Shown: one piece after another, positions 8,542 through 46,867 of the stretch
Numbering within the stretch: the first letter of the stretch is position 1
Layout: each line of letters begins with the position of its first letter
NCBI RefSeq assembly: GCF_005862235.1
Contig: NZ_VCEK01000001.1
Location: forward strand, 310,001-374,000
Source: Saccharomonospora piscinae
GTDB lineage: Bacteria > Actinomycetota > Actinomycetes > Mycobacteriales > Pseudonocardiaceae
Length of the DNA: 64,000 bases
Direction of reading: 5' to 3'
Translations under genes and position numbers: made by a program
The notes under the pieces: generated by a model
The model's database searches: none
Told to the model about the DNA's origin: nothing
Seen by the model: only the letters and a program-made list of their open reading frames with translations

Positions 8542-8720
8542 GACACTCCAATCGCAGTCGCTGCGAGGTACCGGCGCGTGGACACGCCCAGCAGAGTCCA
8601 GCACCGTGCGGCTCCGCTGAGCCAGGCCGAGCGGAGTTGCCGTGCGATGTGCCCATCCGGGCCCCTCCGACGGGTACGTCGACGGAAGCTGTGCCCGCCA
8701 CGCGGTCCGGGGCAGCCTGA

Positions 8721-10506
<1,786 letters not shown>

Positions 10507-11178: not shown

Positions 11179-11357
11179 ACGGCCCACCTCCCTTTCGATC
11201 GCACGGAATCTCAGCATGTCCTGACCGCGGTGGCCTCGCGATGCTCCTCCGAGGTGGCCACTCGGGTACTCCGCCGGAGGTTGGTGCCGCATCGGTGTGG
11301 CACTTACCTTCGGCGCGGCGAGTGGCGAAACACTCTGTGCGGAAATGGCGGGAAACG

Positions 11358-18066: not shown

Positions 18067-18722
18067 CCGCGCTCACGCGGCGACGAGTCCACCCGGCGGA
18101 GGAGATAACGCCAGGGATCGAACCAGCCCTTCTCGAACGCCTTGCGCAGCATGGGAGAGCCGCTGCCGTACCGCAGCATCTCGTCCCCGGCGACGCTCTG
18201 CGCGGAGATCACCTCCCACCCGCGGAACCGCCGCCGGACTTCGTCCAGCTTGATTCCCTTGAGCACGGGATGCTTGGCCAGGCCGAGGATCAGCAGCCGG
18301 GCGTCGCTCGCGGCGATCCGCGTCACCTCGGGCACATAGACGTCTCGAAGGCGAGCGGGAAGCCCGTGGAAGCATCCCGCGTCCACGATGAGGTCGTTGC
18401 CCTCGGGGATGCCCATCCGGCCGAGCTCGGTGACGTCGCCCTGCAGCAGTGACGGCGCGACTCCGGCGTCGCGGGCCTTGCGCCGCGCGGTGGTGACCGC
18501 GTCCCGGACCAGGTCGATACCGGTCACGTCCCAGCCGTTCCGGGCGAGATAGATCGAATGGCGACCGTGACCACAACCGAGATCGAGCGCTCTGCCGGGT
18601 GTGAGTGACTCCGCTCCTTCCACCAGGTCCCTGACGGCGTCGTCCGGCTCGTCGCTGGAGGTGGGATTGAACGGGGACTTGTAGAGCAGGTTCACCACAG
18701 CTCGCGTGGCCAGGGATGTCAC
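18063..18722 (-). CDS. SAM-dependent methyltransferase
   Basis: A 219-residue class I methyltransferase. Motif I is 'ALDLGCGHGRHSIYLA', followed by 'VTGIDLVRDAV' and 'IVDAGCFHGLP', close to the thiopurine/tellurite-type and PKS-tailoring methyltransferases. The GTG at 18722 overlaps the stop of the acyl-CoA-dehydrogenase gene (GTGA); longer frames are artefacts. Its position right after that flavoprotein suggests a tailoring role on the newly formed heteroaromatic core, such as O-methylation of a 4- or 5-hydroxypyridine (inference). Confidence 0.84.
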   Translation of the reverse strand: MTSLATRAVVNLLYKSPFNPTSSDEPDDAVRDLVEGAESLTPGRALDLGCGHGRHSIYLARNGWDVTGIDLVRDAVTTARRKARDAGVAPSLLQGDVTELGRMGIPEGNDLIVDAGCFHGLPARLRDVYVPEVTRIAASDARLLILGLAKHPVLKGIKLDEVRRRFRGWEVISAQSVAGDEMLRYGSGSPMLRKAFEKGWFDPWRYLLRRVDSSPRERG

Positions 18723-19912
18723 GGTCGGGTTCCCTTCGTCGATACTGCTTCGGTCGCCTCGGGTACCGAGAACACGGTCGCGGCGATCGTGCGCAGTTGC
18801 ACGTTCGACGTGCCCTCGTAGATTTTTCCGATCTTGGCGTCGCGGTAGTACTTCTCGGCCGGGCATGCGGTGGTGAAACCACTGCCGCCGAACGTCTCCA
18901 GGGCGTGGGAGGCGACGCGCTCGGCCACCTCGGAGGCGAGAAGCTTGGCGCCCGCGGTGTCGCGCAGCCGCTGGCGTGGGTCGTCCGGCCCGTCGGTCAG
19001 CGCGCGCGTCGTCTGGTACAGCGTCAGCCGCGCCGCGTCCACCTCGACCCGGAGGCGGGCCAGCGGGAAACGCACCCCCTGGAAGGCGGCGATCGGGTGA
19101 CCGAACTGCGCACGCCGCTCCGCGTAGGCGAGCGCGTGCCCGAGCGCGCCCTCGGCGAGGCCGACCAGTTGCGCGGCGATGCCGAGCTTGCCGATGTTGA
19201 GCGCCTCCACGGCGATCTGCATGCCCTGGCCCGCTCGGCCGAGGACGTTTTCCTCGGGCACGAACACGCCGTCGAACGTCACATCGCACGTCGAGCTCGC
19301 CCGGATGCCGAGCTTGTCGATGCGCGAGCCGATGCGCAGTCCGTCGCTGTCCCGGTCGACCAGGAACATCGTCAATGCCGGTGTGCGCGCGTCTGCCCCG
19401 GTCCGCGCGCACACCAGAAACACCCCGGCTTCGTGCGCACTGGTGATCCACGCTTTCTCGCCGTGGATGCGGTACCCGCCGGGCGCGGGCTCGGCCCGCG
19501 TGGTCATGGCGAACGCGTCGCTTCCCGCTTCGGCCTCCGAGAGCGCGAACGAGCCGACGACACCACCGGCGAGCGTGGGGAGAAAGCGCCGCTTCTGGTC
19601 ACCGGTGCCGTAGCGCACCAGTGCGGCGGCCAGGAGCGCGTTCTGCACGTCGACCAGCACCGCGATCGCGGGATCCACCCGCGCGAGCTGCTCGATGGCG
19701 AGAACGACGTCGAGCAGACCGGCGCCGAGCCCGCCGTAGGCCTCCGGTACCTCGATGCCCATCAGTCCCTGGGCGAACAGGTCCCGGACGAGCCGTGGAT
19801 CGTACTCGGCGTTGCGGTCCATGTCGGCGACCAGCGGAGCCACGCGGCTCTCGGCGAATTCGGCGACCGTGTCGCGGAACAGCCGTTCTCGATCGGACAG
19901 GACTGAATCCAT
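18719..19912 (-). CDS. Acyl-CoA dehydrogenase-like flavoprotein (candidate trans-acting partner of the pyridine-forming NRPS)
   Basis: A 397-residue FAD protein of the acyl-CoA dehydrogenase fold: N-terminal helical domain, 'FALSEAEAGSDA' and 'KAWITSA' (flavin and substrate contacts), and the C-terminal 'KIYEGTSNVQL' with the catalytic-base Glu. The ATG at 19912 has a GAGGTGG ribosome site. In caerulomycin and collismycin biosynthesis a trans-acting flavoprotein of this superfamily works with the Cy-A-PCP-terminal-C protein to close the pyridine ring. This gene sits in the operon of a protein with exactly that architecture, so the same role is proposed. Simple alpha,beta-desaturation of an acyl starter is the main alternative. 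Confidence 0.85.
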   Translation of the reverse strand: MDSVLSDRERLFRDTVAEFAESRVAPLVADMDRNAEYDPRLVRDLFAQGLMGIEVPEAYGGLGAGLLDVVLAIEQLARVDPAIAVLVDVQNALLAAALVRYGTGDQKRRFLPTLAGGVVGSFALSEAEAGSDAFAMTTRAEPAPGGYRIHGEKAWITSAHEAGVFLVCARTGADARTPALTMFLVDRDSDGLRIGSRIDKLGIRASSTCDVTFDGVFVPEENVLGRAGQGMQIAVEALNIGKLGIAAQLVGLAEGALGHALAYAERRAQFGHPIAAFQGVRFPLARLRVEVDAARLTLYQTTRALTDGPDDPRQRLRDTAGAKLLASEVAERVASHALETFGGSGFTTACPAEKYYRDAKIGKIYEGTSNVQLRTIAATVFSVPEATEAVSTKGTRP

Positions 19913-19922
19913 GCTCACCACC

Positions 19923-21152
19923 TCACGGGACCAGCCGGACAGGGAGCGTGCGAACACCGCGCAGCACGCACGAACGCACGCGACGAACCGGGCCGGCGGG
20001 TTGCACCTGGCGCACCCTCCGGGTCAGTTCCTCGAACAGCACTGTCAGCTCGATGCGGGCCAGTGCGGAGCCGAGGCAGAAGTGCCCACCCTGCCCGAAG
20101 GTGATGTGCTTGTTCGGCGTGCGGTCGATGTCGAAGGTCTGGGGGGCGTCGAAAACCGCGGGGTCACGGTTCGCCGCGGCGTTGAAGACGACGACCTTCT
20201 CCCCTGCGCGGATTCGTTGCCCGCCGAGTTCGGTGTCCGTGGTGGCGGTGCGCAACACGTGCATGCCGGGCGTGGTCCACCGGAGGATCTCCTCGACGGC
20301 GGTCGGCACGGTGGCCGGATCGTCGCGCAGCCGCCGCCAGGCGCCCTCGTTCGTCATGCAGGCGAGCAGCCCGCCCGCCGCGGCGTGCCGGGTGGTCTCG
20401 TTGCCGCCGATGATCAGATTGGTGCAGTTGAGCAGCACCTCCTCGACGTCGAGCCGGTCTCCGTCGATCTCGCCGCGGGCCAGGATGGAAACCAGGTCCT
20501 CGCCGGGATCGCGCCGCCGCCGATCGGCGAGTTCGCGGTAGTAGTCGAAGATCTCGCCGTAGGCCTCCAGCCGGTCCCCCGTGGTGACCTCGGCGGCCGA
20601 AGCGGGATCACCACCGCCGAACGCGGTGCTCGTCAGGTGATACATCCAGTCCTGGTCGGCGCGGGGAACACCGAGCAGGTCGCAAATGATCGCCACGGGA
20701 AGCCGCGCGGCGACGTCGTCGACGAACTCGCAGCCGCCCGCGGAGATGGCGCGCCCGAGCAACTGCCCGACCGTGTCCCGCACCGTGTGTTCCAGCTTGC
20801 CCATCGTGCGCGGGGTGAACGCCCGATTGACGATCTTGCGAAGTTTGGTGTGCCGAGGGGGGTCGGTGGACACCAGCATCCTGCCCGCGGCGGGGTCACC
20901 GGCGCCCGTGTCCGCTCCGAGCACCATGCCGCGTTCGGAGGAGAACGTCGTCGCGTCGCGGTAGACGGCGACCGCGTCGGCGTACCGGGTCAGCGCCCAG
21001 AAGGCGGCCACGCCCGTTCCCGGGTTGCGATACACCGGACTCCGCTCGCGCAACCGTGCCCAGACCGCGTCCGGATCACCGTGTTCGTAGAGGTCGAGAT
21101 CGGCGAGGTTCACGGTCCCGGCCGCCGCCTCGGCCACTCCCTGTGCCGGCAC
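19923..21152 (-). CDS. Cytochrome P450
   Basis: Bacterial class P450 of about 409 residues: I-helix 'GGNETTRHA' (oxygen activation, with Asn-Glu in place of the common acidic pair), ExxR in 'EEILRW', and heme ligand Cys 359 in 'FGQGGHFCLGSALARIE'. The exact start is uncertain; the GTG at 21152 lies just past the preceding stop, and a GTG at 21113 would give the more common 396 residues. Within a thiazolyl-pyridine pathway it could hydroxylate the alkyl side chain, since WS75624 and karnamicin side chains are hydroxylated (inference). Ring oxidation is the alternative. Confidence 0.9.
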   Translation of the reverse strand: MPAQGVAEAAAGTVNLADLDLYEHGDPDAVWARLRERSPVYRNPGTGVAAFWALTRYADAVAVYRDATTFSSERGMVLGADTGAGDPAAGRMLVSTDPPRHTKLRKIVNRAFTPRTMGKLEHTVRDTVGQLLGRAISAGGCEFVDDVAARLPVAIICDLLGVPRADQDWMYHLTSTAFGGGDPASAAEVTTGDRLEAYGEIFDYYRELADRRRRDPGEDLVSILARGEIDGDRLDVEEVLLNCTNLIIGGNETTRHAAAGGLLACMTNEGAWRRLRDDPATVPTAVEEILRWTTPGMHVLRTATTDTELGGQRIRAGEKVVVFNAAANRDPAVFDAPQTFDIDRTPNKHITFGQGGHFCLGSALARIELTVLFEELTRRVRQVQPAGPVRRVRSCVLRGVRTLPVRLVP

Positions 21153-21157
21153 GGTGC

Positions 21158-22339
21158 TCAGCTCGCCGGGGTCAGGTCGAAGGTCAGCATCTGCTCCCAG
21201 CTGCGCACCGACTTGTCGGCGGGTGCCTTCCGCGTACTGAAGTTCCTGATCATGCACATCAACCTGTTCTCGAACTTCTGCAGTTTGTCCAGAGTGAAGA
21301 TCCGTTTGCGCAGCCAGTCGATCCGTGGCTTGCGCCGGGCTTCGTAGGCCCGGAGCGCTTCGACGGGATCGGTGTTGGTGGCGAGTTCCGCACCGAGCAC
21401 GACGGCGTCCTCGACGGCCTGACAGGCACCTTGCGCGAACACCGTCGGCATGGCGTGCGCGGCGTCCCCGAGCAACGTCACCGGACCCGAGCCCCACACC
21501 TCCGCTGTTTCCCGGACCAGTACGGGGCTCACGACGATGCGCTCGCTCGGGGTGGACTCGATGAGCTGGTGAAACGGCGCGGGGAATCCGGCGACGAAGT
21601 CGAGGACGGCGCGTTTCGGGTCGTCTCCGGCGTCCAGCCGTCGTTTCAGGGGGCTGGTGGCCCCGACCGTCCACGACACCGTACCGTCGGCCAACGGCCA
21701 GCAGCCCGCGCCGCCGCCTCGCGGCCCCCAGACCATCGTGACCGTGTTCGGGTCGGTGCCGTGCCCGTTCCGCGCGATGCCGCGGATGGGAAAGCTGCTG
21801 GCCAGGGGGTCGCCGTCGCCGACGAGCTGGTTGCGGATCGTGGAGCGGGCACCGTCGGCGCCGACGAGGACGGCACCCTCCTCGACGCGGCCGTCGGCGA
21901 GCTGGAGGGCCACGCCCTTCTCCGTTTCCCGGTAGCCAGCACACCCGGTTCCGGTGTGGACGGGGATGTCCGCGTCCACACAGGCCTGATACAGCAACCG
22001 CGACAGCTCGGAGCGGCGGATGTTCACCGACGTGGTGCCGAGGCGCCGCCCGATGTCGGCGATCGGGGTTTCGCCGATCAACCCGCCCCGGTGATCCCGC
22101 AACAGCATCCGCTCGATCGGATCGCCCGCGTCTCGGACCTCCCGGCCGAGACCGACTCGGTCGAGTGCGGTGACCGCGTTGCCCCACAGGTTGAACGCGG
22201 TTCCGGCTTCGCGCAGGGGGTCATCGGTGCGCTCGAAGACCACGACCTCGGCACCCGCGCCGTGGGCGGCGAGCGCGGCACACAGCCCGCCGATCCCCCC
22301 GCCCGCGATCAGGACCCTGCGGCCCGTGCTTGCTGCCAT
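21158..22339 (-). CDS. Class A FAD-dependent monooxygenase
   Basis: A 393-residue aromatic hydroxylase-type flavoprotein: 'LIAGGGIGGLCAALAAHGAG' at the N-terminus, the DG motif 'LVGADGARSTIRNQL', and the second FAD motif 'PVTLLGDAAHAMPTVFAQGACQA'. The ATG at 22339 has a perfect AAGGAGG ribosome site and overlaps the NRPS 3' end by 31 bases, so it is translated with the assembly line. It is the best candidate for hydroxylating the pyridine carbon next to the 4-oxygen before O-methylation, as the 4,5-dioxygenated WS75624/karnamicin ring requires (inference). Confidence 0.88.
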   Translation of the reverse strand: MAASTGRRVLIAGGGIGGLCAALAAHGAGAEVVVFERTDDPLREAGTAFNLWGNAVTALDRVGLGREVRDAGDPIERMLLRDHRGGLIGETPIADIGRRLGTTSVNIRRSELSRLLYQACVDADIPVHTGTGCAGYRETEKGVALQLADGRVEEGAVLVGADGARSTIRNQLVGDGDPLASSFPIRGIARNGHGTDPNTVTMVWGPRGGGAGCWPLADGTVSWTVGATSPLKRRLDAGDDPKRAVLDFVAGFPAPFHQLIESTPSERIVVSPVLVRETAEVWGSGPVTLLGDAAHAMPTVFAQGACQAVEDAVVLGAELATNTDPVEALRAYEARRKPRIDWLRKRIFTLDKLQKFENRLMCMIRNFSTRKAPADKSVRSWEQMLTFDLTPAS

Positions 22340-25300
22340 GAGTCGGCCTCCTTGCCCTGTTCACCGATGAATCCGATTTCTTCCAGGTGTTCGAGGTAGC
22401 GCCGCAGTACCGGACCGTCGACCGGAGGGCAGCTGACCTCGTCCCCGAGCAGCTCCCGCGTGCGCGTGGACTCGAACCGGGGATCGCGCAGGCGATGGCT
22501 GGCGTGCTGGGTCCACTCGGACAGCAGGGTGATCGCGACGGTCCAGTCCTCGTCGACGGCCTGGCTGGAGTGGGCCAGCAGCCGGGCGTACCAGTCGGTC
22601 ATCTTCGCTGAGTCCGTCTCGTACCCGGCGAGCTCGAAACCGGCCTGCAGGTCGGGAAAACGCAGTGGGCGCGGGTTGACGAGGTGGAAGACGCCCCCGA
22701 TGGCCTCGCGACGGCGTGCGATCGCGGCGATGGCCGCGCCGACGTAGTCCACCGGCACCATGTCCAGGACGCCGTCGAAGTTCGGCAGCACCTTCAGCGC
22801 CGCGCTGGCCCGCAGCAGCTCGGCGAGCGCGTCGCTGTGCGCGAGCCACGCGCCGGTGGCGCTGTCCCCGCTGACCCGGCCGAGCCGGTGCACCACCACC
22901 GGCAGTCCCCGGTCGCGGGCCTCGGTGACCAGCCGCTCGGCGACCCACTTGGTCTCGGTGTAGCCGTTGGGCAACGCCGGCGCCGCGGCGTCCAGGTCCA
23001 CCTCGACACCGCGGTACTCCCCTTCGGCCGCGGCGCGGGCGGGAAAGACGCCCACCCCGGAGATGTGGTGCAGCACCGAGGTGCGCCCGGTGCAGGCGAG
23101 GCGGATCATCTCCTTGGTGCCCTGCACGTTGGTCGAACGCAGCCTGCGGTACGGATAAAGGAAGTTGACGTGGGCACCGAAGTGGTAGAGCTCGGTGCAA
23201 CGCTGCCCGTAGCGCGCGAACCGCTCCTCGCCCAATCCCAGGTAGGGCTGCGACAGGTCGCCGGGCACCGGGTGCAGCCGCTCCGCGAACGCCTCGTCCC
23301 ACCAACCCAGCGAGCGCAGGTGTTCCACCAGCCTGTCCCGGCCCTCCTCTTCGCCGCTCGCCCGGACCAGGCAGTGCACGTCCGCGTCGGTCGTGCGCAG
23401 CAACTCGACCACGAGCCGTGCCCCGGGGAATCCGGTGACACCGGTGACGAAGACGTCCTGTGGGTCGCCGATCCATTCCCATTCCCGGTGGGGAACGAGG
23501 TCGTCGTCCAGTTCGGCTTCGCGGGCGAGATCCACGGTGCCCGGCCGGTCGGGGCCTTCGCGCACGGCGCCGCCACCGTCGACGACGGTCGCGAGGGAGG
23601 CGACGGTGGGTGATTCGTACAGCCTGCGCAGTGGCACGTTCACCCGCCAGATCCCGCGGATCTCGTTGACGGCCCTGGTGGCGACCAGCGAGTGCAGACC
23701 GAGGTCGACGAGGTTGTCCTCGGCCCCGACCCGAGGCACGTCCAGCAGTTCGCCCAGCACCTCGGCGATGCGCTGCTCGGTCGGTGTCCTGGGGGCGACG
23801 TAGTCGCTGCCGTCCCGGCTCGGGTCGGCAGCGGGCAGGGCCTGGTGGTCGACCTTGCCGTTGGCCCGCACCGGAAGCCGGTCGAGCACCGACACCGTGA
23901 CCGGCACCATGTGCTCCGGCAGCGCATCGGCACACCGGCGTTTCAGCTCCTCGCCGAAAGCGGACTCGTCACCGGGCTCACCGGCACAGACCACGAACGC
24001 GAGCAAGCGCTCGCCCGCGCTCCCGCCACCCGCGACGGTGGCCACCGCGGCGCGAACCCGGTCATCGCCGCGCAGCGTGTCCTCGACCTCGCCGAGTTCC
24101 ACCCGAAAGCCGCGCACCTTCACCTGGCCGTCGGCCCGGCCGATAAAGGCCAGTTCGCCCTCGGCGGTCAGCCGCGCCAGGTCTCCGCTGGCGTAGCAAC
24201 GTCCGGGGGTCTCCCCGGCCGGGTGCGGATCGGTGCCGAACCGTCGTGCGGTGCGTTCGGCGTCGCCCAGGTAACCCGCGGCGACACCAGGGCCGCACAG
24301 CAGCATCTCCCCGGGCGCGCCGTGGGGTGCGAGGTGACCGTGCTGATCGAGCAGGTGGATGCTGGTGTCGACGAGCGGCTGCCCGATCAACGCTCGCGCC
24401 TGCGGATCGCGGCTCTCCGCCGCGCGCAGCCGGTGCGCACAGACCCAGACCGTGGCCTCGGTGGGGCCGTAGGCGTTGACGACCTGGATGGCGTCGCCGC
24501 GCCGGTCGAACCAGTCCCGAAGCGAGCGTGGGTCGACCTTCTCGCCGCCCAGCACCACCAACCGCAACGCGAGGTCGGGCCGGTGTTCGGCGTCGGCGGG
24601 AAGGAGCTGGCCGAAAGCCGACGGCGACTGGGTACACACGGTGACCCGTTCCCGGTCCAGCAGTTCCAGGAAGTCGGCCGGTGACCTGGTGACCCAGTAG
24701 GCGGCGACGACCAGCCGCGCCCCGTGGGTGAGTGCTCCCCACATCTCCCAGCTCGCCCCGTCGAAGGCGGGTGAGAAGAACATCGACCACACGTCGTCGG
24801 CGCCCAGCCCGAATTCCTGGCGCGCCGCTGCCGCCAGCCGCAGCACGTTGTGGTGGGTCACCAGCACACCCTTGGGTCTGCCGGTGGAACCGGAGGTGTA
24901 CATGACGTAGGCGATGTCGTCCGCGTCGAGGTCGACCGCGCGGGGGCGCGCGTCGGCGAGATCGCCGTCCAGCGCCACGATGGCCGGTGCGTGCTCCCCG
25001 GCCGCCGCGCGCAGCCCTTCGACGAACCTGGTGTCCGCGAGCACCGCCGCGGCCGAGGAGTCCGACAGCACGAGCGCGTGCCTGCCGGGCGGATCGGCGG
25101 GATCGAGCGGCACGTAGGCCGCCCCTGCCGTGAGCACACCGAGGACACCGGCGACGAACCGTGCCGAACGGTCGGCGCAGACCGCGACCCGCGTACCCGG
25201 TTCGACGCCGTGGGCCTGGAGGGCCGCGGCGACGCGGTCGGCGTAGCGGACGAGTTCGCGGTAGGTCAGTGAGCCGTCCTCGCCGGTGACGGCGATCTTG

Positions 25301-26730: not shown

Positions 26731-26732
26731 GG

Positions 26733-27464
26733 CTACGCGATTCCCCTCCGCCGCGCGGTTCCGGCTCCTCGTTCCGGCCGCAGCGCCGAGGCGAGCAGCC
26801 GGAGCAGATTGGTGCGGTCGGTCTCCAGGAAGAAGTGGTCACCGGGGTGGATCCGGACGGAGAACTCAGAGTCGGTGTAGGACTCCCACTCCCGCACGTC
26901 GGTTTCCGGCGCTTCCTCGTCGGCGTCCCCGGCGAAGGCGGTCACCGGGCAGGTGAGCGTGACCGCGTTGCGTGGGACGTACTTCTCGGCCAGGGCGAAG
27001 TCCGCGCGCAGCACGGGCAGCAACAACTCCTTCATCTGGTCGTTGGCGGCCACTTCGGGTGGTGTGCCGCCCAGGTGGGCGATGTGCGCCCACAGGGCCT
27101 CGTCGGTCAGGACGTGTGCCTGGTTGCGCGCGGGCAGATGCGGCGCTGCGGCCCCGGAGGGGAAGAAGTGCTCCGGCGGCCTGCCCTCCCGCTGCAGCGC
27201 GCAGCTCAGCTCGTAGCCGAGCAGGGCACCCAGACTGTGCCCGAAGACCGAGTACGGGCGGTGCGCGCGGGGACGTAGGTGGTCCAGCAGGTCGGCCACC
27301 AGCGGTTCGAGTTCACCCAGCGGTGGTTCGGTGAACCGGTGGCCCCGGCCCGGCAGTTCGATGGGCACGACGTCGATCCAGTCCGGCAGCTCCCGCTCCC
27401 AGCCCCGGAAGGTTCCGGCCGACCCTCCGGCGTAGGGCAGGCAGAACAGGGTGTGTGTCGTCAC
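26733..27464 (-). CDS. Type II thioesterase
   Basis: A 243-residue stand-alone alpha/beta-hydrolase thioesterase: 'LFCLPYAGGSAG' at the N-terminus, nucleophile Ser in 'GHSLGALLG', and the catalytic His in 'GDHFFL'. These editing enzymes clear misprimed acyl or aminoacyl groups from carrier proteins. The GTG at 27464 overlaps the stop of the PKS-NRPS gene (GTGA) and follows a GGGGAGC ribosome site; the longer frame upstream is an artefact. It lies between the two large synthetases, as usual. Confidence 0.92.
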   Translation of the reverse strand: MTTHTLFCLPYAGGSAGTFRGWERELPDWIDVVPIELPGRGHRFTEPPLGELEPLVADLLDHLRPRAHRPYSVFGHSLGALLGYELSCALQREGRPPEHFFPSGAAAPHLPARNQAHVLTDEALWAHIAHLGGTPPEVAANDQMKELLLPVLRADFALAEKYVPRNAVTLTCPVTAFAGDADEEAPETDVREWESYTDSEFSVRIHPGDHFFLETDRTNLLRLLASALRPERGAGTARRRGIA

Positions 27465-33400: not shown

Positions 33401-34984
33401 CGGCTCGGCCAGTGCCGTCGCGGCGCCCTCGGCACCCAGCGCGTCCTCGATGACCGCGATCCGCCGATGCCGGAAGTCTTTGCGGCCAGTCTGCAGGGTT
33501 CGTGCGACGTCGGCGAGGTCGGTGCGAGGGTCCGGTTCCGTGCCGTGCGCCCCCCGCAGCGCGGCGGCAAGGTCACTCGCCCGCTCGTCGAGCGCGTGCT
33601 TGCCCTGCGCGGAGAGCGTGAGTACATGCACGTTCCTGCGGGGGCCCTCCGGCGGCCGTGGCGGCGCCTGCTGCAACACGGCGTGCACGTTGGTGCCCCC
33701 GAAGCCGAACGAGCTCACCCCGATCCGCCGCGGTGACCCGTTCCGCTTCCAGGCGGTGGTCGTGGTCGCGACCCGGAACGGCGTGCGGTTGAAGTCGATC
33801 TCCGGGTTGGGCTCGGTGAAGTTCAGGCTCGGCACCAGCTCGCCTTCGCGCAGCTGCAGCACCGCCTTGATGAAGGAGGCGATCCCCGCGGCGCTGTCCA
33901 GATGGCCGATGTTCGACTTCACCGAACCGAGCAGACACGGGTGCGAGCGCCCGGTTCCCTCGCCGAAGACCTTGGTCAGCGCGGCGACCTCGATCGGGTC
34001 ACCCAGCGGGGTTCCCGTACCGTGCGCCTCGACGGCGTCCACGGTCTCCGGCGACACCCCCGCCACAGCCAGCGCGCCCGCGACCGCCCGCGCCTGCCCC
34101 TCCACGCTGGGAGCGGTGTATCCGACCTTGCTCGCGCCGTCGTTGTTCATCGCGCTACCCAGCAACACGGCGTCGATGCGATCGCCGTCGGCGACGGCGT
34201 CGTCGAGCCGCTTGAGCACCACCGCGCCCGCACCGCTGCCGATGGCGGTACCGGTGGCCCGCGCGTCGAACGGCCGGCAGTGCCCGTCAGCGGAGAAGAT
34301 GGAGCCCTCCTGGTGGAGGTATCCGTTGCCGTGCGGAACCCGCACCGTGACACCGCCCGCGAGCGCGACGTCGCACTCGTAGGACAGCAGCGCCTGCGCG
34401 CCGAGGTGGACCGCCACCATCGAGGAGGAGCACGCCGTCTGCACGGCCACCGCGGGTCCGTCGAGGTCGAACTGGTAGCTGACTCGGCTGGCCAGGTAGT
34501 CCTTGTCGTTGGCGACGAGCAGCTGGAAGCTGTCCGGGCTGGCGTCGTAGACGCGCCCGCGCAGCAGGTTGGCGAGCAGGTATCCGGACAGGGTCGAGGC
34601 CGCGTACACCCCGATCGAGGCGTCCCCCGCACCGGGCACGACGGCGGCATCCTCCAGCGCCTGCCACGCGCACTCCAGAAACAACCGCTGCTGCGGGTCG
34701 AGGATCGCCGCGTCCCGCGGAGAGAACCCGAAGAATCCCGCGTCGAACTCCTCGATCCCCGCCAGCGTGATCACGGAGCGCACGTAACGGTGTTCGGCGA
34801 GCATCGCCGGATCGGCGCCGTTGGCGATCAGCGTGTCGTCGTCGAGTTCGGTCACCGACTCGACACCGGACCGCAGGTTGCGCCAGAAGGAGTCGATCTC
34901 CGGCGCGCCGGGCATCCTGGCGGCCATCCCGATCACGGCGACGGCGGGCGGCTCACCGCCCTCGGCGGCAAGGTACTCGCTCAT
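27461..34984 (-). CDS. Hybrid PKS-NRPS: KS-AT-ACP-Cy-A(Cys)-PCP-C*
   Basis: A 2507-residue protein. KS about 13-440 (Cys 185 in 'TACSSS', His 321, His 361). AT about 545-835 (Ser 642 in 'GHSIGE', 'HAFH' at 739-742, the malonyl-CoA signature). No KR, DH or ER. ACP Ser 987. Cyclisation domain 1048-1480 with Asp1182, Asp1187 and Ser1190 of the DxxxxDxxS motif. A domain 1510-2000 with code D-L-W-N-L-S-L-I-W, close to the cysteine code. PCP Ser 2049. A C-terminal condensation-like domain follows (2095-2507) whose HHxxxDG motif reads 'HELVADE', so the catalytic His is Glu. This is the layout of the caerulomycin/collismycin pyridine-forming protein. ATG overlaps the previous stop. Codon 824 is TTA. 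Confidence 0.93.
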   Translation of the reverse strand: MSEYLAAEGGEPPAVAVIGMAARMPGAPEIDSFWRNLRSGVESVTELDDDTLIANGADPAMLAEHRYVRSVITLAGIEEFDAGFFGFSPRDAAILDPQQRLFLECAWQALEDAAVVPGAGDASIGVYAASTLSGYLLANLLRGRVYDASPDSFQLLVANDKDYLASRVSYQFDLDGPAVAVQTACSSSMVAVHLGAQALLSYECDVALAGGVTVRVPHGNGYLHQEGSIFSADGHCRPFDARATGTAIGSGAGAVVLKRLDDAVADGDRIDAVLLGSAMNNDGASKVGYTAPSVEGQARAVAGALAVAGVSPETVDAVEAHGTGTPLGDPIEVAALTKVFGEGTGRSHPCLLGSVKSNIGHLDSAAGIASFIKAVLQLREGELVPSLNFTEPNPEIDFNRTPFRVATTTTAWKRNGSPRRIGVSSFGFGGTNVHAVLQQAPPRPPEGPRRNVHVLTLSAQGKHALDERASDLAAALRGAHGTEPDPRTDLADVARTLQTGRKDFRHRRIAVIEDALGAEGAATALAEPDPERVFTRRAPAGQPELCWLLPGQGSQYPGMGAQLYEQEPAFRAVVDDAADILRPELEIDLRELLYPPEDADPERAAEQLRQTSYAQPALFVVQTALATLLWDRGARPDAMLGHSIGEITAAHLAGVLDLPDALRLVALRGRLMQEQPSGAMVAVGLGEDELRRTLPPTLSIAAVNAPELCVVSGPHAAVDAFRDELSETGVHTRGLHTSHAFHSEMMRPAARGVADFLTGVSLRAPHERVVSNRTGDWLTAEQATDPHYWAGQILDPVRFAAGFARVSGAAEHPVCLEVGPGHTLTSLVKVCPEGKRTHTATTLRAAGEQGSDTVTLATALGRLWLSGVEVDFAAVDAHAPRRRVSLPGYPMQRRRYWIPAGSPSAGGPLTLDTGVGGDSADSAVDDAEGRVESGLPASGREPRPELDAEFTEPDTELQRRIAGIWQELLGVEPVGLHDPFLELGGHSLLAIKVVQRIEQELKVTIPLRRLVRAGTVGKLAELAAELGAESSDERTGIPQAVAHPEQRYEPFPLTEIQQAQWIGRQGNFQLGNVAAHVYFEVAAGELDLDRLQGAWNAVEQRHPMLHAVLTDAGTQRVLPDVGPYELTVRDLRDHDDAQVAAELDELRERLSHEMRPVDRWPLFDIVVARLPERRHRVFISFDLLIADIGSIRILLRDWGRAYAAERPALAPLGISYRDYVLAASEIRGTELYQRSLEYWRERARRLPPPPQLPLARNPAELTEPRFGSHGRLLPTDVWQRLVDRGAQHGVTASSILLAAYGVVLGRWTRESRFTVNVTVTNRFEVHPDVEDLVGEFASFDLLPIDLGSGSFAEIADALQEQSWSDLEYRYLNGVEVLRELAREQGGNAGGMPVVFTSTLVQQAESPDESLLGWLGDIVHEAAQTPQVWLDGAAIQVSDGVYLSWLGIDELFPDGLLEQMLDAYAALLRELADSDEPWSRIPGPRLPPRDRELVERANDTGGALPEGLLCDRLGEQIRIRPDAIAVVAPDATLTYGELGAHAGALAHRLRALGVGPGQLVAVSLPKSAAQIAAVLGVHWAGGAYLPVDPELPAQRQDHLVERGRCRVAVVAPDGRTEWPEGVRALDLDLTADPGTAEMPESLARPDDLAYVIFTSGSTGDPKGVAVSHRAALNTCVDICERFGVGADDRVLGLSSLSFDLSVWDVFGLLGAGGTLVLPEPDARRDPQRWLDLVRRHGITVWNSVPALAQMFADHARGAGETTLPLRLALLSGDWIPLDLADRLREVASGCRVISLGGATEAAIWSIHYEIAEIDPAWDSIPYGTPLRNQSFHVLGQRWQECPVHVTGELYIGGAGLADGYFGDGERTAAQFVTHPDTGQRLYRTGDLGRWRPDGTIEFLGREDFQVKVGGYRVELGEIEAAALRHPEIGTAVVTAFGDRHHKRLVGYLIPAVGGETDTDDLLADVERHLHGELPSYMVPPTLLVVSELPLTGNGKVDRSALPDPAASAEHGEFDAAADALTERLVAMISEVLGVEAVDPARGFLEAGGDSIRAVQLVSRANAEGLDLTLQDLFELPTLRHAAAACQARSGAAVDSTGERLPISADQATRLAASPGARWASVAVEPDVDAGLVGRASAWLLARHPALRLRLVEEPEGGIGQTIAPVDDEPPYVPLVDLSALPELRRQHALSAMIEEMAGELDPVRGPVARAALFDLDAHDRRLIWLAHELVADEASWTTMLRDLDAVLADLRSGTEPAPPPVCTAFAEWVRAEGGPTRSTVPEPRASAAIEHTLSEEPVTARAELTGEETEALVYGVAESYRMRLDEACFAALALVLGDAGLPGCAVERDGRDTAAEGAVGPFTVSGAVALVPVSQPGGAGNAAVAAMRAALTDAKSTYRARSAVRGDEPVLLRYLGAASVRPDPRRVPAQPITVTAALVQGRLRLEWAVRAPGWGVADRCRAHAEALVAIAEHCRRPDAGGASGSDFPLAGLDDDELALVLDNIGERS

Positions 34985-37900
34985 GAGCGCGTCCGTCCTT
35001 CCCCCGCTACAGCGGTCCGCTCCTGCCCTCGGGGAGGGCGTGCGACCCGGCGCATCCGCGCCCGCGCGGTCGCCTTGTCGATCAGCTCGTCGGTCTCGGG
35101 ATCGTCGTCCCGGGACAGTGCCTCGGCGAGCCTGCGCACCGTGGCGTGCTCGAACATGCGCACCAGCGGGAAGTCGACGTCCAGCTCGGTCCGCAGCCAC
35201 CGGTAGGCCCGCACGATCGCGGCGGAGTCCGCGCCGAGATCGAAGAACCTGCTGTGTACGCCGATCACGTCCACGTCGAGCACCCGGCGGAACACCGAGG
35301 CGATGGTGCGTTCCAGCGTTCCGGCCGGGGGGCTGTCGTCCAGCTGGTGCTCGGTGGGTGTCACCATCCGCTCCACCGCCGAGCGATCCACCTTGCCCAC
35401 CGGGGTCAGCGGCAACCGCTCGGTGACGACCAGGGTCGCGGGCACCATGTACTCGGGCAGGTTCCGCCCGAGGTGGTCACGGAGGTCCTCGACCAGATCC
35501 CGTTCGGTGCGTTGTCCGGTCGTGGCGGGTTCGGCTCCGGCGGGCAGCAGCGCACCGCCGAGCACGGCGTGCAGCGGCTCGTGCTCGGCACCGAGCCGGA
35601 ACGCCTCCCTCAGCGCACCTGCGGGGTCGTGCGTACCGACCTGGCACAGCCCGATGCCGTGGGACGGGGCGTGCTCATCGAGCAGCTGAGTCATCAGACC
35701 GGTCTCGATGAGGCAGAGGTCCCGTGCCCGCACGCCGTACAGCGGTCGCACCGCGGCGAGGTCGGCCACGAGGAAGACGGCGAAGGCCGCGGTGCCGACA
35801 GCCTCGGCGTCCACTCCGAACCCCACGGAACCGGTCAGCTCGTGCTCGTCGATCGGCACCAGCCGATGTGCGGAGGGATCGTGGTAGTAGGTGCCGCCGG
35901 CCAGCCCCTCAACCTGTCCGTGGCGGACCCACAGGTAGGTCTGCACGCCGTAGCTGTTGCCCGCCGAGGCGTACGCGTACTTCGGCAACGACTCGCCCGC
36001 ATGGGAGCGCAGCGGAGCCAGCAGCGCCGAGAGCTCGGCCAGAGTCACCGGCCGGGCGGCGAAGCGCCGGTGACTCGCCCTGCTCGGCACCCCGTCCGAC
36101 GCCGCCGTCAGCGACACGGGGTCACACGGCGGGTCCACCGCCGTGTCCAGATCAGTGCGCACCCCGTTCCGGGCCAGGGTGAAGTCCATGCGCTCCAGGC
36201 CCCCGGCCAGCACACCGGAACCGAACATCTCCTCCGTGGTGGGCTCACTGCGGAGCCCGGACGGGACCACGCACGCCGCGAGGCGCTTGCCGTGGCGGTC
36301 GCCGAGCGCGGTGACCACGGCCGCGTCCACGTCCTCATGGGCCAGCAGCGCCGACTCGATCTCCCCGAGTTCGATCCGGTACCCGCCGATCTTGACCTGG
36401 AAATCCGCGCGCCCGAGGAACTCGATCGTGCCGTCCGGCCGCCACCGGCCCAGATCGCCGGTGCGGTAGAGCCGTTCACCGGTCCGGGGATGCGTGACGA
36501 ACCGCGTCGCCGTCTTGTCCGGATCGCCGAAATACCCGTCGGCCAGCCCGGCGCCGCCGATGAACAGCTCCCCGGACACGTGCACCGGACATTCCCGCCA
36601 CCGGTCGTCGAGCACGGACAGGGTCTGGTTCCGCAGCGGTGTGCCGTAGGGGATCGACTCCCAGGCGGGATCGACCTCGTCGATCTCGTAGCAGACGGAC
36701 CAGATCGCGGCTTCGGTGGCGCCGCCGAGGGAGACCACGCGGGCCTCCGGCGCGATCGAACGGATCCTGTCCGGCAGATCCACCGGGATCCAGTCACCGG
36801 ACATCAGCACCAGCCGCAGCGGAACCGGCTCGGCCGCGCCGTGCGTGTAGTCGGTGAACATGCGTGCCAACGCGGGCACCGAGTTCCAGATCGTGACACC
36901 GTGCGCCCGAACCAGCTCCAGCCAGCGAGCCGGGTCACGACGGTCCTGCGGCTCGGGCAGCACGAGTGTCCCGCCCGCGGCCAGCACGCCGTAGATGTCC
37001 CAGACGGACAGGTCGAAACTCAGCGAGGACAGCCCGAGCACTCGATCCTGCGGCGTGACGTCGAAGCGCTGGTTGATGTCGACGCAGGTGTTCAGGGCCG
37101 CGCGGTGCGAGCAGACGACACCCTTGGGTTCCCCGGTGGAGCCGGACGTGAAGATCACGTAGGCCGGGTCGGTGGGACGTGCGGGTGTGCCAGGCGGCGC
37201 CACGGTGCCCGGGTCCGCGTCGAGTTCCACCCGCACCACACCGACTCCGTCCGGCCAGGACGCGCGGTGCTCTCCCGCCACGACGAGACCGCACTCCCCG
37301 CGGCTGAGCAGCAGATTCTGCCGTGCGGGTGGGAGTTCGGGATCGATCGGCAGATAGGCGGCACCGGACAGGGTGACCCCGACGGCGGCCACGACCTGAG
37401 CCGCGCTCTTGGTCAGGCTCACGCCCACCACATCACCGGGGCCCGCGCCGAGCTCCCGGAGCCGGTGAGCCAGTGCCCCCGCGTGTGCGGCCAGCTCCGC
37501 GAAGGTGAGTTCCGCGTCCGCGGCGAGGACCGCCTTCGCCTCCGGCCGCCGGGTCGCCTGGTCCAGCACACCGTCGTGCAGCAGCCCGTCGGGCACCACC
37601 CCGCCGGTGTCGTTGGCGCGCGCCACCAGTGCGTGGTCCGGATTCTCCAGCAGCGTGTCGAGAGGTTCGGACCAGCTGTCGTCGCCGGTCGCGGACAGCT
37701 CGTCGAGCACCGTCCGGTAGGAGCCGAACATGGCATCGAGCGTGCCCTCGACGAACAGTTCGTCCACCGCGTCCCAGTTGAAGTCGAGCCCGTCGGGGTC
37801 CTCGAACAGCTGGTGGTCGAGCAGCACCTGTGGGGTCTGGGAGAGCCCGAAGGCCCGGTCTCCGAGCCAGGACAGCGGCATCGGCTCGCCGGTCCGGTCC

Positions 37901-40900
37901 GACTGCCCCGAAGCACTCGCGAACACGACCGGCGCGAAGATCTCGGCCTCGCCACCGCGGGCCCGCCCCAACTCCCGCAGCAGCCGCACCCCGCTGAACG
38001 CGGAGTGCTCCAGGTCCTGCCAGAGCCGCCGCTGCACCTGCCGTGCCAGGTCGGCGAAGTCCCGCGCGGCGCCGAGATCGACTTCGAGCAGGGTCACCGA
38101 CGTGAAGTCGCCGACCAGCGCGTCGACCTCGGGGTGGACGGGCGCGCGGTTGAACGTCGGCAGGTTCAGCGTGAACCGGCCCCGCTGGCCGAAGGTGCCG
38201 AGCACGGTGGCGTACGCGGCGATCAGCACCGCCGAGGTGGTGACCCCGGCGCTTCGCGCCCGCCGCACGATCCGCTGCCAGCGGTCCCCGTCGACCCTGG
38301 CCTGCCTGCGCACGAACTTCGGCGGCCGGCCCAGCCCCGACGGTGGCCGGGCCAACGGCAGTTCGGGGCCGGGGGGAAGGGTCGCCAAGCGGTCCATCCA
38401 GTACTTTCTGGACCGCTCCGCATGCGCGGGGTCGCCGTCCTCGTGGAGCACGTAGTCCCGGAAGGTCAGGGCGAGCTCGGGCAGCTCCACCTCGGGGTCC
38501 GTGTAGCACGCCTGCCATTCCCGGGAGACGATGTGCAGGCTCCACAGATCGAGCACGAGCAGGTCGAGGCTGACGTGGACGCGGTCGACACCGCCCGGTA
38601 GCCGCGACACCCGGATATCGAACGGCGGCCACGCGTCGGCGTCGAAGGTCTGCACCGACATCTCGCCCCGCGTGAGCTCCACGTGTTTCGCGGCCTGCTC
38701 CTCGGTCGCCTCGCGGAGGTCGAGCACCGCCATCGGAGGGATCTCGGGGTCCGGGAGAACTCGCTGGGTCCCGTCCGCCGAGATCACCGAGCGCAACGCG
38801 CCGTGCCGCTCGACCACCCGGCACCAGGCGCGGTGCAGCCGGTCGGGGTCGAGCCCGGCGGAGTCGAACTCGCCGTAGAAGTGGGTCCCGACCCCGCCGA
38901 GCGCGTAGCCGCCGGAACGGCCGACCAGGTAGGCGTGCTGGAGCTCGGTGAGCGGGAACGGTTCCCCGCGAGCCGCCGGTGCGGGAGTGATCCGCGTACC
39001 ATCCCGCTGCGGACCGGTCACGCCGTCCGCGCTCGCGCGGAGGCTCAGCGCGCGCGTGTCGGTTCCGCCGAGTTCGTGGATCGGCACCGACAGTCCGAGT
39101 TCCCTGGCGAGCACGCCGCGGAGTTTGATCAAACGCATCGAGTCGAGGCCGAGCTCGACCAGCGGGGTGTCCGGGTCGATCGCGTCCGTCGGCGCGCCGA
39201 GCAGGCTCGCGATCCGGTCCCGGACGGCGTCGAGCGGAGTGCGCGCCGCGCTCGCCCGCGCGCTCCCGCCCGCGTACGCCCCCACGGCGCCCAGCGGATC
39301 GAACTCGCCCGCGAGGTAGGCCCGGCGACAGGCGGCACGCTGAACCTTCCCGGTGGAGGTCAGCGGTATCCGGTCCGGGGGCAGCACCACGACCTCGTGC
39401 GGGTCGATCTCCTGCTCGGCGATCACCGCGCGGCGGGCCGTGGCCGCCAGCTCGTCCGGAGCGGTCGGGGTATCCGGCGCCGCGCTCACCAGGACTACGA
39501 GTCGTTCGCCGTCCTCGCCGTCGATCGCGAACGCGGCGGCGGGCCCGGCGGCCAGCTCGGGAGCGCAGCGCTGTGCCGACTGTTCCACGTCGTGCGGCAA
39601 CAGGTTCCGGCCCCGCACGATGATGATCTCGCTCAACCGGCCGCAGATGACCAGCTCGCCGTCGTGGAAGAACGCCAGATCCCCGGTGCGCAGGAACGGC
39701 CCGGTCCCGTCGGCGAGTCGCGCACCGAAGGTCTCGGCCGTCTGCCGCGGCCGCCGCCAGTAGCCGCAGGCGACGATGTCGCCGCGAATCCACAGCTCAC
39801 CGATCTCACCCGGGGCGCATTCCGTGCGCTGCTCGGGATCGACGATGAGCAGCTCCGCGCGGCTGGCCGGTCGTCCGCAGGGGATCAGTTCGGTGGTGCG
39901 CTCGCCAGGGGTGGCGTGTTCGATCCGGCCGCGCTCCAGCGCCTCGGTGTCGACGTGCATCCGGGCGGGGCCGTCGGGGCGGCATCCGCCGGAGCCCATC
40001 ATGATCTCGGTGGTCCCGTACGCGGTGAAGAACGCCGAGGAGGTGAACCCGCACGGGCCGAACGCCTCCGCGAACGAGTCCAGCACCGACGAGCGAATCC
40101 GCTCCGAGCCGACGATGGCCACCGCCCACCGGGACAGGTCCAGGCCGACGCGGTCCGGCTCGGCGATGTCCTCGGTACATCGCTGGTATCCGAACGGCGG
40201 CGCGCCGCTGAGCACCTCGCTGTCCGCCTCGGAGATCGCACGCAGCCATCCCCTCGGCTCGGCCAGCGCGTCCTCGGGAGTCAGCAACGTCACCGGGCCG
40301 TCCAGCCGGCTACCCATCAACAGCAGGTTCAGGCCCAGCACGTGATGGACGGGCACCCAGTTGACCACCGAGGAACCCGGAGGCAAGGCCACCCGCCCGG
40401 CCAGTTCGTCGAGCCACGTGCACAGCAGCCGGTGGCTGACCTCCACGGCCTTCGGTGCTCCGGTCGATCCGGACGAGTACTGCAACACCGCCAGCGTGCC
40501 GGGCTCGATCGTGGGTGGTGTCCAGTCCGGCACCGGCTCGGGCTGTGCGACGTCGAGCACGATCCAGGACACCGGGCCGGCGTCGCGTTCGGCCCAGAGC
40601 TGTCGCGCCGCGGGCGCCGTCGCAGCATCGGTGATGATCACGTCGATCTCGGCGTCCCGCCCGATCTCGACGAACTGAGCTTGGCCGTCCCCGGGCAGTG
40701 GTGTCGGCACGGCACACGCTCCCGCGTACAGCACGCCGGACAGGGCCACGCAGAATTCCAGGCTTCCGGGAAGCAGCAGCAACGCTCGGGTATCCGGCCG
40801 CAGGTGTGCCGCGAGGGCCGACGCACGGTCGTTCCATTCGGTTCCGGTGAGCCGGGCGACGACCGCACCTCCCTGACCGGCGAGCGCGACGGCTGTCCGG

Positions 40901-40965
40901 TCACCGCGGTCGGTGCAGTACCGGCGCAACCGCTCGGTGAGGTTCGGCTGCTGCGGACCACTCAT
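34981..40965 (-). CDS. Loading NRPS: FAAL-ACP-Cy-A(Cys, inserted oxidase)-PCP
   Basis: A 1994-residue protein that starts the line. Residues 1-560 are a fatty-acyl-AMP-ligase-like domain ('LQYSSGSTGAPKAVEVSH', 'TGDLAFFHDGELVICGR'). ACP Ser is 609. The cyclisation domain (668-1095) has Asp801, Asp806 and Ser809 of DxxxxDxxS. The A domain begins near 1125, with code D-L-W-N-L-S-L-I-W (cysteine). Between A8 and A10 (about 1575-1815) lies an FMN-dependent oxidase insert with the nitroreductase-like 'PKYAYASAGNSYGVQTYLWV', which turns thiazoline into thiazole. PCP Ser is 1914. Predicted product on the PCP: a 2-alkyl-thiazole-4-carbonyl thioester. It is the first gene of the operon and is coupled to the PKS-NRPS by ATGA. 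Confidence 0.93.
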   Translation of the reverse strand: MSGPQQPNLTERLRRYCTDRGDRTAVALAGQGGAVVARLTGTEWNDRASALAAHLRPDTRALLLLPGSLEFCVALSGVLYAGACAVPTPLPGDGQAQFVEIGRDAEIDVIITDAATAPAARQLWAERDAGPVSWIVLDVAQPEPVPDWTPPTIEPGTLAVLQYSSGSTGAPKAVEVSHRLLCTWLDELAGRVALPPGSSVVNWVPVHHVLGLNLLLMGSRLDGPVTLLTPEDALAEPRGWLRAISEADSEVLSGAPPFGYQRCTEDIAEPDRVGLDLSRWAVAIVGSERIRSSVLDSFAEAFGPCGFTSSAFFTAYGTTEIMMGSGGCRPDGPARMHVDTEALERGRIEHATPGERTTELIPCGRPASRAELLIVDPEQRTECAPGEIGELWIRGDIVACGYWRRPRQTAETFGARLADGTGPFLRTGDLAFFHDGELVICGRLSEIIIVRGRNLLPHDVEQSAQRCAPELAAGPAAAFAIDGEDGERLVVLVSAAPDTPTAPDELAATARRAVIAEQEIDPHEVVVLPPDRIPLTSTGKVQRAACRRAYLAGEFDPLGAVGAYAGGSARASAARTPLDAVRDRIASLLGAPTDAIDPDTPLVELGLDSMRLIKLRGVLARELGLSVPIHELGGTDTRALSLRASADGVTGPQRDGTRITPAPAARGEPFPLTELQHAYLVGRSGGYALGGVGTHFYGEFDSAGLDPDRLHRAWCRVVERHGALRSVISADGTQRVLPDPEIPPMAVLDLREATEEQAAKHVELTRGEMSVQTFDADAWPPFDIRVSRLPGGVDRVHVSLDLLVLDLWSLHIVSREWQACYTDPEVELPELALTFRDYVLHEDGDPAHAERSRKYWMDRLATLPPGPELPLARPPSGLGRPPKFVRRQARVDGDRWQRIVRRARSAGVTTSAVLIAAYATVLGTFGQRGRFTLNLPTFNRAPVHPEVDALVGDFTSVTLLEVDLGAARDFADLARQVQRRLWQDLEHSAFSGVRLLRELGRARGGEAEIFAPVVFASASGQSDRTGEPMPLSWLGDRAFGLSQTPQVLLDHQLFEDPDGLDFNWDAVDELFVEGTLDAMFGSYRTVLDELSATGDDSWSEPLDTLLENPDHALVARANDTGGVVPDGLLHDGVLDQATRRPEAKAVLAADAELTFAELAAHAGALAHRLRELGAGPGDVVGVSLTKSAAQVVAAVGVTLSGAAYLPIDPELPPARQNLLLSRGECGLVVAGEHRASWPDGVGVVRVELDADPGTVAPPGTPARPTDPAYVIFTSGSTGEPKGVVCSHRAALNTCVDINQRFDVTPQDRVLGLSSLSFDLSVWDIYGVLAAGGTLVLPEPQDRRDPARWLELVRAHGVTIWNSVPALARMFTDYTHGAAEPVPLRLVLMSGDWIPVDLPDRIRSIAPEARVVSLGGATEAAIWSVCYEIDEVDPAWESIPYGTPLRNQTLSVLDDRWRECPVHVSGELFIGGAGLADGYFGDPDKTATRFVTHPRTGERLYRTGDLGRWRPDGTIEFLGRADFQVKIGGYRIELGEIESALLAHEDVDAAVVTALGDRHGKRLAACVVPSGLRSEPTTEEMFGSGVLAGGLERMDFTLARNGVRTDLDTAVDPPCDPVSLTAASDGVPSRASHRRFAARPVTLAELSALLAPLRSHAGESLPKYAYASAGNSYGVQTYLWVRHGQVEGLAGGTYYHDPSAHRLVPIDEHELTGSVGFGVDAEAVGTAAFAVFLVADLAAVRPLYGVRARDLCLIETGLMTQLLDEHAPSHGIGLCQVGTHDPAGALREAFRLGAEHEPLHAVLGGALLPAGAEPATTGQRTERDLVEDLRDHLGRNLPEYMVPATLVVTERLPLTPVGKVDRSAVERMVTPTEHQLDDSPPAGTLERTIASVFRRVLDVDVIGVHSRFFDLGADSAAIVRAYRWLRTELDVDFPLVRMFEHATVRRLAEALSRDDDPETDELIDKATARARMRRVARPPRGQERTAVAGEGRTRS

Positions 40966-42006: not shown

Positions 42007-42094
42007 GGCTTTCCACGACCTCCTCGACATTTCCTAGCTAATCTTCTTCTTGGTCAGCCAGGTGAGCAGCGTTCGACGATGTCGCCAAACCCGG

Positions 42095-46749: not shown

Positions 46750-46867
46750 GGGAATCACTCCAATCAGGTGGGTCACGGCTCGGCTGAGATCGCCCTGGCC
46801 GCGCTCATATCTGACTTTCGGGGCGGCGCGGCAGCCGGATTGGCCGTGCACCAAGGATTTCTCCGAC

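Follow-up and report, generated by a model that had tools for sequence, protein, structure and literature searches.

A probable thiazole-pyridine assembly line in Saccharomonospora piscinae whose third module may keep the residue that related lines discard

Formation of a pyridine through carbon-carbon bond formation on a nonribosomal peptide synthetase (NRPS) has been reported, in the literature consulted, from the biosynthesis of caerulomycin, collismycin and karnamicin. Each of these lines discards the residue that follows, the leucine of the next module contributing no atom to the product (PMC8149447, PMC9838390). In the reconstituted caerulomycin line, CaeB1 is recruited by the Ct domain and dehydrogenates the cysteinyl residue carried by the PCP of CaeA2, and the Cy domain is held to form the C-C bond and close the pyridine (PMC8149447). 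The karnamicin cluster (knm) of Lechevalieria rhizosphaerae encodes a FAAL-ACP-Cy-A-Ox-PCP protein, a KS-AT-ACP-Cy-A-PCP-Ct protein, a type II thioesterase, an acyl-CoA-dehydrogenase-like flavoprotein, FAD monooxygenases and a methyltransferase; its third NRPS is C-A(Leu)-PCP, KnmE takes the leucine off again, and formation of the amide depends on KnmC (PMC9838390). Here we analyse a 64,000-nucleotide stretch of GC-rich DNA (the window) from the 4.9-Mb genome of Saccharomonospora piscinae (contig NZ_VCEK01000001.1, positions 310,001 to 374,000), which shares with knm the elements up to the methyltransferase and has, where knm has C-A(Leu)-PCP, a third synthetase, NRPS3, with another specificity code and a C-terminal reductase-like (R-like) domain. 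On the most far-reaching reading, the lines of the window and its relatives form a sister family to those of caerulomycin and karnamicin that has so far gone undescribed, and the leucine step, traceless in the known lines, has turned productive in it: the residue would be kept, would vary by clade (Trp-like, Ala/Gly-like and Thr-like codes) and would leave by R-like release, here giving a halogenated, tryptophan-ended thiazolyl-pyridine. We put the probability of this reading at roughly 0.4.

From the domain order, motifs, clades and gene neighbourhood read in the sequence, we infer the following reactions, starter, residue and released form. A starter acid activated by the FAAL-type domain would combine with cysteine to give a 2-substituted thiazole-4-carbonyl thioester, the Cy domain cyclising and the inserted oxidase aromatising, and the KS and AT would extend it by one malonyl unit. 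The flavoprotein, brought in by Ct, would dehydrogenate a second cysteine while this is bound to its PCP; the second Cy would join that cysteine via a C-C bond, and closure would yield a 4-oxygenated 6-(thiazol-4-yl)pyridine-2-carbonyl thioester. NRPS3 would attach one amino acid; where the caerulomycin, collismycin and karnamicin lines use a traceless leucine, this residue would stay in the product, and the chain would exit via the R-like domain, in the simplest case as an aldehyde or alcohol. The residue may be of tryptophan type, supplied or modified by a halogenase, a tryptophan-2,3-dioxygenase (TDO)-like protein, an aminotransferase and short-chain dehydrogenases/reductases (SDRs), and the product class would be a thiazolyl-pyridine-carboxamide with a terminal, perhaps tryptophan-derived, residue. 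An earlier note on this DNA had ascribed the oxygen at C4 to the missing KR, an explanation that does not hold: C4 would be the malonyl-derived carbonyl, and a KR would act on the ring-closing C2 ketone (deduced from PMC8149447).

Related lines were fetched for comparison, giving 21 with the window included: 13 with an R-like domain (the window, G841, G854, G460, G196, G1263, G947, G145, G872, G876, G915, G390 and G920), seven of the caerulomycin/karnamicin type, and one with broken genes (G370), which was used for no conclusion and of which one misread frame was an outlier in the flavoprotein tree. Four R-terminated lines, whose loci are orthologous, make up clade I: the window, G841, G854 (Micromonospora echinofusca MPMI6) and G460 (Saccharothrix sp. 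NRRL B-16314). Further matches lie outside the set of 21 (G462, G494, G537, G464, G389, G531, G452, G460:C32 and G809, with open frames of 1397-6410 aa, plus weaker matches). The stretches of several relatives stop where the contig stops (G460, G854, G417) or at the fetched edge, so absences hold for the stretches read. All trees were quick trees, with support given as SH-aLRT (Shimodaira-Hasegawa-like approximate likelihood ratio test) values only; the PKS-NRPS frame of G947 (2559 aa) was left out of all Cy and KS trees, and NRPS1 and PKS-NRPS of G460, each split over two frames, were kept so. The GrsA code and the usual functional meaning of the active-site motifs served as background. A-domain codes were read at nine positions and the tenth letter (Lys) was supplied by script; this Lys was separately read for NRPS3 and for the A domain of PKS-NRPS, and NRPS1 has a gap there. 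The caerulomycin type was anchored by a CaeA2 peptide from the literature, in which residue 2042 is F and which occurs in G215 and G417, in which the CaeA1-/CaeA2-like proteins have 650/2484 and 644/2484 aa, respectively, against the published 650/2484 aa (PMC8149447). The karnamicin-type reference locus was G211.

Phylogeny places the pyridine-forming machinery of the window with these known lines. The 18 pyridine-type Cy domains grouped together in a single clade (98) that excluded 14 thiazole-type and 25 other Cy domains. This clade divided into a caerulomycin/karnamicin branch (7 rows, 100) and an R-terminated branch (11 rows, 100), with the window in the latter. Likewise, 18 KS domains formed one clade (99), apart from 17 other KS domains, and divided as Cy does with weaker support (91 and 89). 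The flavoprotein belonged to a clade of 19 rows (100) that left out the acyl-CoA dehydrogenases of related genomes; among the matches listed, these dehydrogenases share 35-40 % identity with the flavoprotein of the window. A search of 150 genomes of the order gave only three proteins that match the latter at E 1e-85 or better, each of them encoded in such a line. Its catalytic Glu (E372) is kept, and its FAD-binding Ser (S168) is Thr, as in 5/5 R-terminated flavoproteins aligned, with Ser in G211 and G215 (we assigned the numbering by transfer via an offset of 5 to G215). The Cy of NRPS1 has DLLVLDLWS and its oxidase insert is of the nitroreductase fold, while PKS-NRPS carries TACSSS in the KS, GHSIGE and HAFH, without YASH, in the malonyl-type AT, and DLLIADIGS in the Cy. 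Both of their A domains read DLWNLSLIW at the nine positions, close to the cysteine consensus DLYNLSLIWK, and are predicted to select cysteine. In Ct, the second His of HHxxxDG is missing in all 10 domains aligned.

The earlier note had described just such a pair of proteins and the flavoprotein in one operon, and had proposed a thiazole module followed by a caerulomycin-type pyridine module, to be checked by the phylogeny of KS, Cy and terminal C domains. All of these domains are encoded on the minus strand; their E-values exclude chance by a wide margin, their active-site motifs are in place, and domain order, motifs and clade membership are consistent with the proposal; for the terminal C domain, the position and the lost His are the same as in the known lines, but the divergence (29-43 % identity) is too great for a rooted tree. 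Because Cy, KS and flavoprotein group with caerulomycin- and karnamicin-type lines, the core is well supported, and the operon very probably builds a linked thiazole-pyridine core. That core is not new, as its two-protein architecture has already been published for karnamicin (PMC9838390). The caerulomycin/collismycin 2,2'-bipyridine lines share the pyridine module, the trans flavoprotein and the clade of the third-NRPS C domain; they start from picolinate, where the window has a thiazole module, and their leucine is traceless, where the residue of the window is apparently kept (PMC8149447).

Thiazole modules vary among the relatives. The thiazole Cy of karnamicin-type G211 sits beside the pyridine Cy domains (92), apart from the thiazole Cy domains of R-terminated lines, which could mean that the two kinds of thiazole module evolved independently. 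NRPS1 of G841 has three Cy-A units before the oxidase (FAAL-Cy-A-Cy-A-Cy-A-Ox, 4069 aa; L072-L073, 1897-14106 of the joined stretch), of which the middle A domain has a changed A5 motif (GSASG, GGATE in the others) and is perhaps inactive. G370 (L050) is a decayed cluster of the same family, with the PKS-NRPS end and the flavoprotein broken across frames.

What sets the locus apart lies downstream of the pyridine. The earlier note had given an inventory for 18719-40965 in which the items named, including a P450, an FAD monooxygenase and methyltransferases, are indeed present, and had passed over the thioesterase and NRPS3, a C-A-PCP-R synthetase that changes the meaning of the cluster. The C domains that follow Ct formed one clade (100) in 16 lines of both the caerulomycin/karnamicin and the R-terminated type, apart from 29 other C domains, and that of NRPS3 grouped with the CaeA3-type C; by this placement, NRPS3 is the CaeA3 counterpart. 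Its A-domain code, however, is DGWTVGAVWK in the window, G841 and G460 and DGYTVGAVWK in G854 (three and one of the four clade I lines), as against the leucine-step code DYWSFGLVVK in 7/7 caerulomycin/karnamicin-type lines. A KnmE-like amidohydrolase gene, for leucine removal, was called in all seven of those loci and in 0/13 R-terminated stretches read; a KnmE search of the source genome gave a best match of only 26.8 bits, and no homologue of the asparagine synthase KnmC was called in the cluster. It is therefore doubtful that the end product is of the karnamicin/WS75624 kind, as the earlier note had supposed; for WS75624, none of the paper titles listed dealt with its biosynthesis. We consider it likely that the residue added by NRPS3 is kept in the product, and there is a good chance that the product combines the thiazole-pyridine core with a kept terminal residue. 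Such a product would differ from the known ones at its end, so the compound is probably unknown; no description of an R-terminated thiazolyl-pyridine line was found in the literature searched, which reached few subscription papers. Two other R-terminated lines, G390 (L044 3410-10004) and G920 (L078-L079), have a split form, with C-PCP-R lacking an A domain plus a stand-alone A domain with a Thr-like code, and G390 encodes a protein with an AMP-binding fragment plus a methyltransferase.

Genes that may serve tryptophan chemistry lie at 8.8-16.2 kb, beyond the coordinates of the earlier note, as does the opine-dehydrogenase-like gene. The halogenase matches the Trp 5-halogenase 8fov at 795 bits, with the next two solved structures at 761 and 759 bits, the third being a Trp 6-halogenase, and has counterparts in G854 (74 %) and G196 (66 % over 354 aa). 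The TDO-like protein is shortened and keeps two His and an Arg, which we take to be the active-site residues of TDO. We rejected the idea that these genes form an unrelated neighbouring cluster, as the SDR-aminotransferase-TDO-SDR set adjoins the same core in G841 and G854 (54-69 % identity). Among the 13 R-terminated stretches, TDO-like genes were called in six and halogenases in three. A TDO homologue elsewhere has been reported as a Trp 4-hydroxylase (PMC6920865), so kynurenine cleavage is not the sole reading for this protein.

Codes for Trp and Kyn were compared with the taromycin-type line of G223, a genome of the same genus, for which we presume the residue order beyond Trp1, Ala11 and Kyn13. 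The NRPS3 code shares 7/10 positions with the first-module Trp1 code of this line (6/9 read), 6/10 with the Trp code of the calcium-dependent antibiotic (CDA; 5/9 read), and 5/10 with the Kyn code and with the caerulomycin/karnamicin Leu code; a leucine or kynurenine pattern of these two kinds was accordingly rejected. At each of the nine positions read, the Kyn and 3mGlu codes of G223 agree with the codes published for S. viridis (PMC9113097). Taromycin, a daptomycin-type lipopeptide of Saccharomonospora, resembles the proposed product in chlorination of Trp and Kyn and in FAAL initiation, but as a 13-residue cyclic lipopeptide without pyridine chemistry it serves as code control and analogy only (PMC9113097).

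The R-like domain scored 301 bits against a thioester reductase model (curated cut-off 213) and 257 bits, over query residues 6-396 of 414, against the thioester reductase domain of MxaA (PDB 4u7w), likewise a C-terminal R domain. The clade I domains keep the TGxTGF nucleotide motif, the Tyr and the Lys; the Thr of the STV motif of MxaA is Gly in the window. All four clade I loci have the P450 gene (66-71 % identity), and gene calling gave none in the remaining 17; an alignment scan over named genomes gave three loci, of which two were clade I. Its best solved matches are two CYP125MRCA proteins (375 and 372 bits), followed by 3mgx and 4l0e (312 and 308 bits), which we take to be OxyD and P450sky, hydroxylases of carrier-bound amino acids. 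The P450 may act in side-chain hydroxylation, as the earlier note had suggested, or in beta-hydroxylation of the loaded residue. The opine-dehydrogenase-like protein matches a solved opine dehydrogenase at 138 bits over residues 7-353 of 360; a gene of this family within an NRPS operon that ends in an R-like domain makes imine reduction after release conceivable.

Several observations weigh against the proposed pathway. The loading domain of NRPS1 is best matched by fatty-acyl-AMP-ligase models, all below their curated whole-protein cut-offs, and its substrate could be other than a fatty acid; the nearest solved relatives of the flavoprotein are short/branched-chain acyl-CoA dehydrogenases (2jif, 357 bits), a type absent from the tree. 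The C domains read in four R-terminated lines (G145, G872, G876 and G915, three of these stretches being cut at the fetched edge) are not of the CaeA3 type, so a residue kept after the pyridine is not established for every R-terminated line. A second Leu code, used as background, also shares 7/10 positions with NRPS3; it makes the code a weak argument for tryptophan, and leucine must still be reckoned with. G196 has halogenase and TDO-like genes, yet the codes of its last two modules are Ala- and Gly-like, so NRPS3 is not necessarily the destination of what the tryptophan genes make. Because this second Leu code equals the Trp match and G196 speaks against a simple link, the odds that the kept residue is of Trp type (tryptophan or a halogenated or oxidised tryptophan) are about even. 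Finally, the Thr of the T-Y-K triad, which is catalytic in R domains, is lost in clade I (Gly in three of the four domains, the window included, and Ser in the remaining one), so the domain may not act as a reductase and the released form is uncertain, and the type II thioesterase of the cluster could hydrolyse the chain.

Could the locus nevertheless be a cluster for karnamicin or WS75624, the latter presumably built on the same thiazolyl-pyridine scaffold? The residue of the third module would then be traceless and removed by a housekeeping amidohydrolase, and an asparagine synthase encoded elsewhere would make the carboxamide. NRPS1 and PKS-NRPS do have the published karnamicin architecture, and a knmE mutant still produced karnamicins, so other amidohydrolases can substitute (PMC9838390); moreover, the source genome encodes an asparagine-synthase-like protein with 46 % identity to the KnmC-like one of G211 (G000:C3:237323-239236, 71 kb before the window), and the O-methyltransferase that starts at 6303 resembles a caerulomycin-type one (42 %). 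Against this stand the different code and R-like domain of NRPS3, the low score of the best KnmE match, and the placement of Cy and KS in the R-terminated sister clade. The two FAD monooxygenases, one of which the earlier note had fitted to karnamicin-type tailoring, share no more than 28-30 % identity with the KnmB1/KnmB2-like proteins of G211. The window also has the tryptophan halogenase, TDO-like protein, aminotransferase and SDRs, the tryptophan-side genes being kept in relatives, besides the P450 and the opine-dehydrogenase-like protein, and the karnamicin pathway as published has no such genes (PMC9838390). We regard this explanation as quite improbable.

It is also conceivable, although unlikely, that the tryptophan-side genes make a separate block that bypasses NRPS3, either as a halogenated Trp- or kynurenine-derived acid that primes the FAAL-like domain or as a derived amine that forms an imine with the aldehyde after release, which the opine-dehydrogenase-like enzyme would then reduce. 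The codes of G196 would fit, as would the opine-dehydrogenase-like gene in the operon here and in the Saccharothrix locus, and the FAAL of the window has HHVLGL where the karnamicin type has HDMGLV; however, a scan of the cluster region showed no second ligase, the loading domain still resembles fatty-acyl-AMP ligases most, and the opine-dehydrogenase-like gene was not seen in the stretches of G841 and G854 read. We similarly doubt that the R-like domain, its catalytic Thr gone, has a non-redox release or docking role while the type II thioesterase or another enzyme frees the chain. Loss of the Thr in clade I, and replacement of both Thr and Lys in clade III (G390 and G920), would suit such a role, but clade I keeps the Tyr, the Lys and TGxTGF, and the score against the thioester reductase model is well above its cut-off. 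If the proposed sister family does keep its residue, a traceless helper step has become a source of diversity, and its 13 of 21 lines are a larger set for asking how the downstream C domain treats sulfur. Karnamicins inhibit angiotensin-converting enzyme (ACE), which lends related scaffolds pharmacological interest (PMC9838390).

The core genes form a single minus-strand series from 40965 down to 16195 whose ends overlap or nearly touch, in the order NRPS1, PKS-NRPS, thioesterase, NRPS3, FAD monooxygenase, P450, flavoprotein, methyltransferase, opine-dehydrogenase-like protein and methyltransferase.

Table 1. Genes and domains of the cluster region, in positions of the window
Feature	Coordinates	Strand	Remarks
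NRPS1	34981..40965	-	FAAL-ACP-Cy-A(Cys)-Ox-PCP: FAAL-type ligase 39301-40965; ACP 39070-39231; Cy 37666-38970; A(Cys) 36241-37563; oxidase insert 35551-36183; PCP about 35098-35340
PKS-NRPS	27461..34984	-	predicted pyridine-forming module KS-AT-ACP-Cy-A(Cys)-PCP-Ct: KS 33665-34942; AT 32375-33352; ACP about 31919-32107; Cy 30545-31846; A(Cys) 28976-30454; PCP about 28730-28927; Ct 27464-28669
Type II thioesterase	26733..27464	-	CaeA4/KnmA4 counterpart
NRPS3	22309..26730	-	C 25384-26730; A 23821-25350; PCP 23584-23772; R-like domain 22366-23454
FAD monooxygenase, group A type	21158..22339	-	likely pyridine hydroxylase
Cytochrome P450	19923..21152	-	
Trans flavoprotein, acyl-CoA-dehydrogenase-like	18719..19957	-	CaeB1/KnmD counterpart
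Small class I methyltransferase	18063..18722	-	68-76 % identity to those in other clade I loci
Opine-dehydrogenase-family protein	16984..18066	-	also in the Saccharothrix locus (62 %)
Methyltransferase	16195..16971	-	at the cut-off used, 0/20 other loci match
Flavin-dependent oxidoreductase, ArsO/MSMEG_0569-like	15243..16178	+	also in G841 (50 %)
SDR oxidoreductase	14106..14993	+	kept in G841, G854
Short TDO-like protein	13354..14079	+	
Pyridoxal phosphate-dependent aminotransferase, class I/II	12101..13357	+	kept in G841, G854
SDR oxidoreductase	11241..12110	+	kept in G841, G854
Flavin-dependent tryptophan halogenase	8830..10506	+	
Second FAD monooxygenase, HpxO-like	7354..8604	-	cluster membership less certain
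O-methyltransferase	6303..7349	+	41-42 % identity to one in caerulomycin-type G215, G417; membership less certain
LuxR-family regulator	41299..42030	-	homologues adjoin several related lines
Helix-turn-helix regulator with MmyB-like ligand domain	42095..42931	-	

Outside the cluster, fasciclin, molybdopterin oxidoreductase and TauE/SafE genes follow one another at 46066-49502 of the window. The source genome has a second large NRPS region at G000:C7:67570-94153, with open frames of up to 3936 aa.

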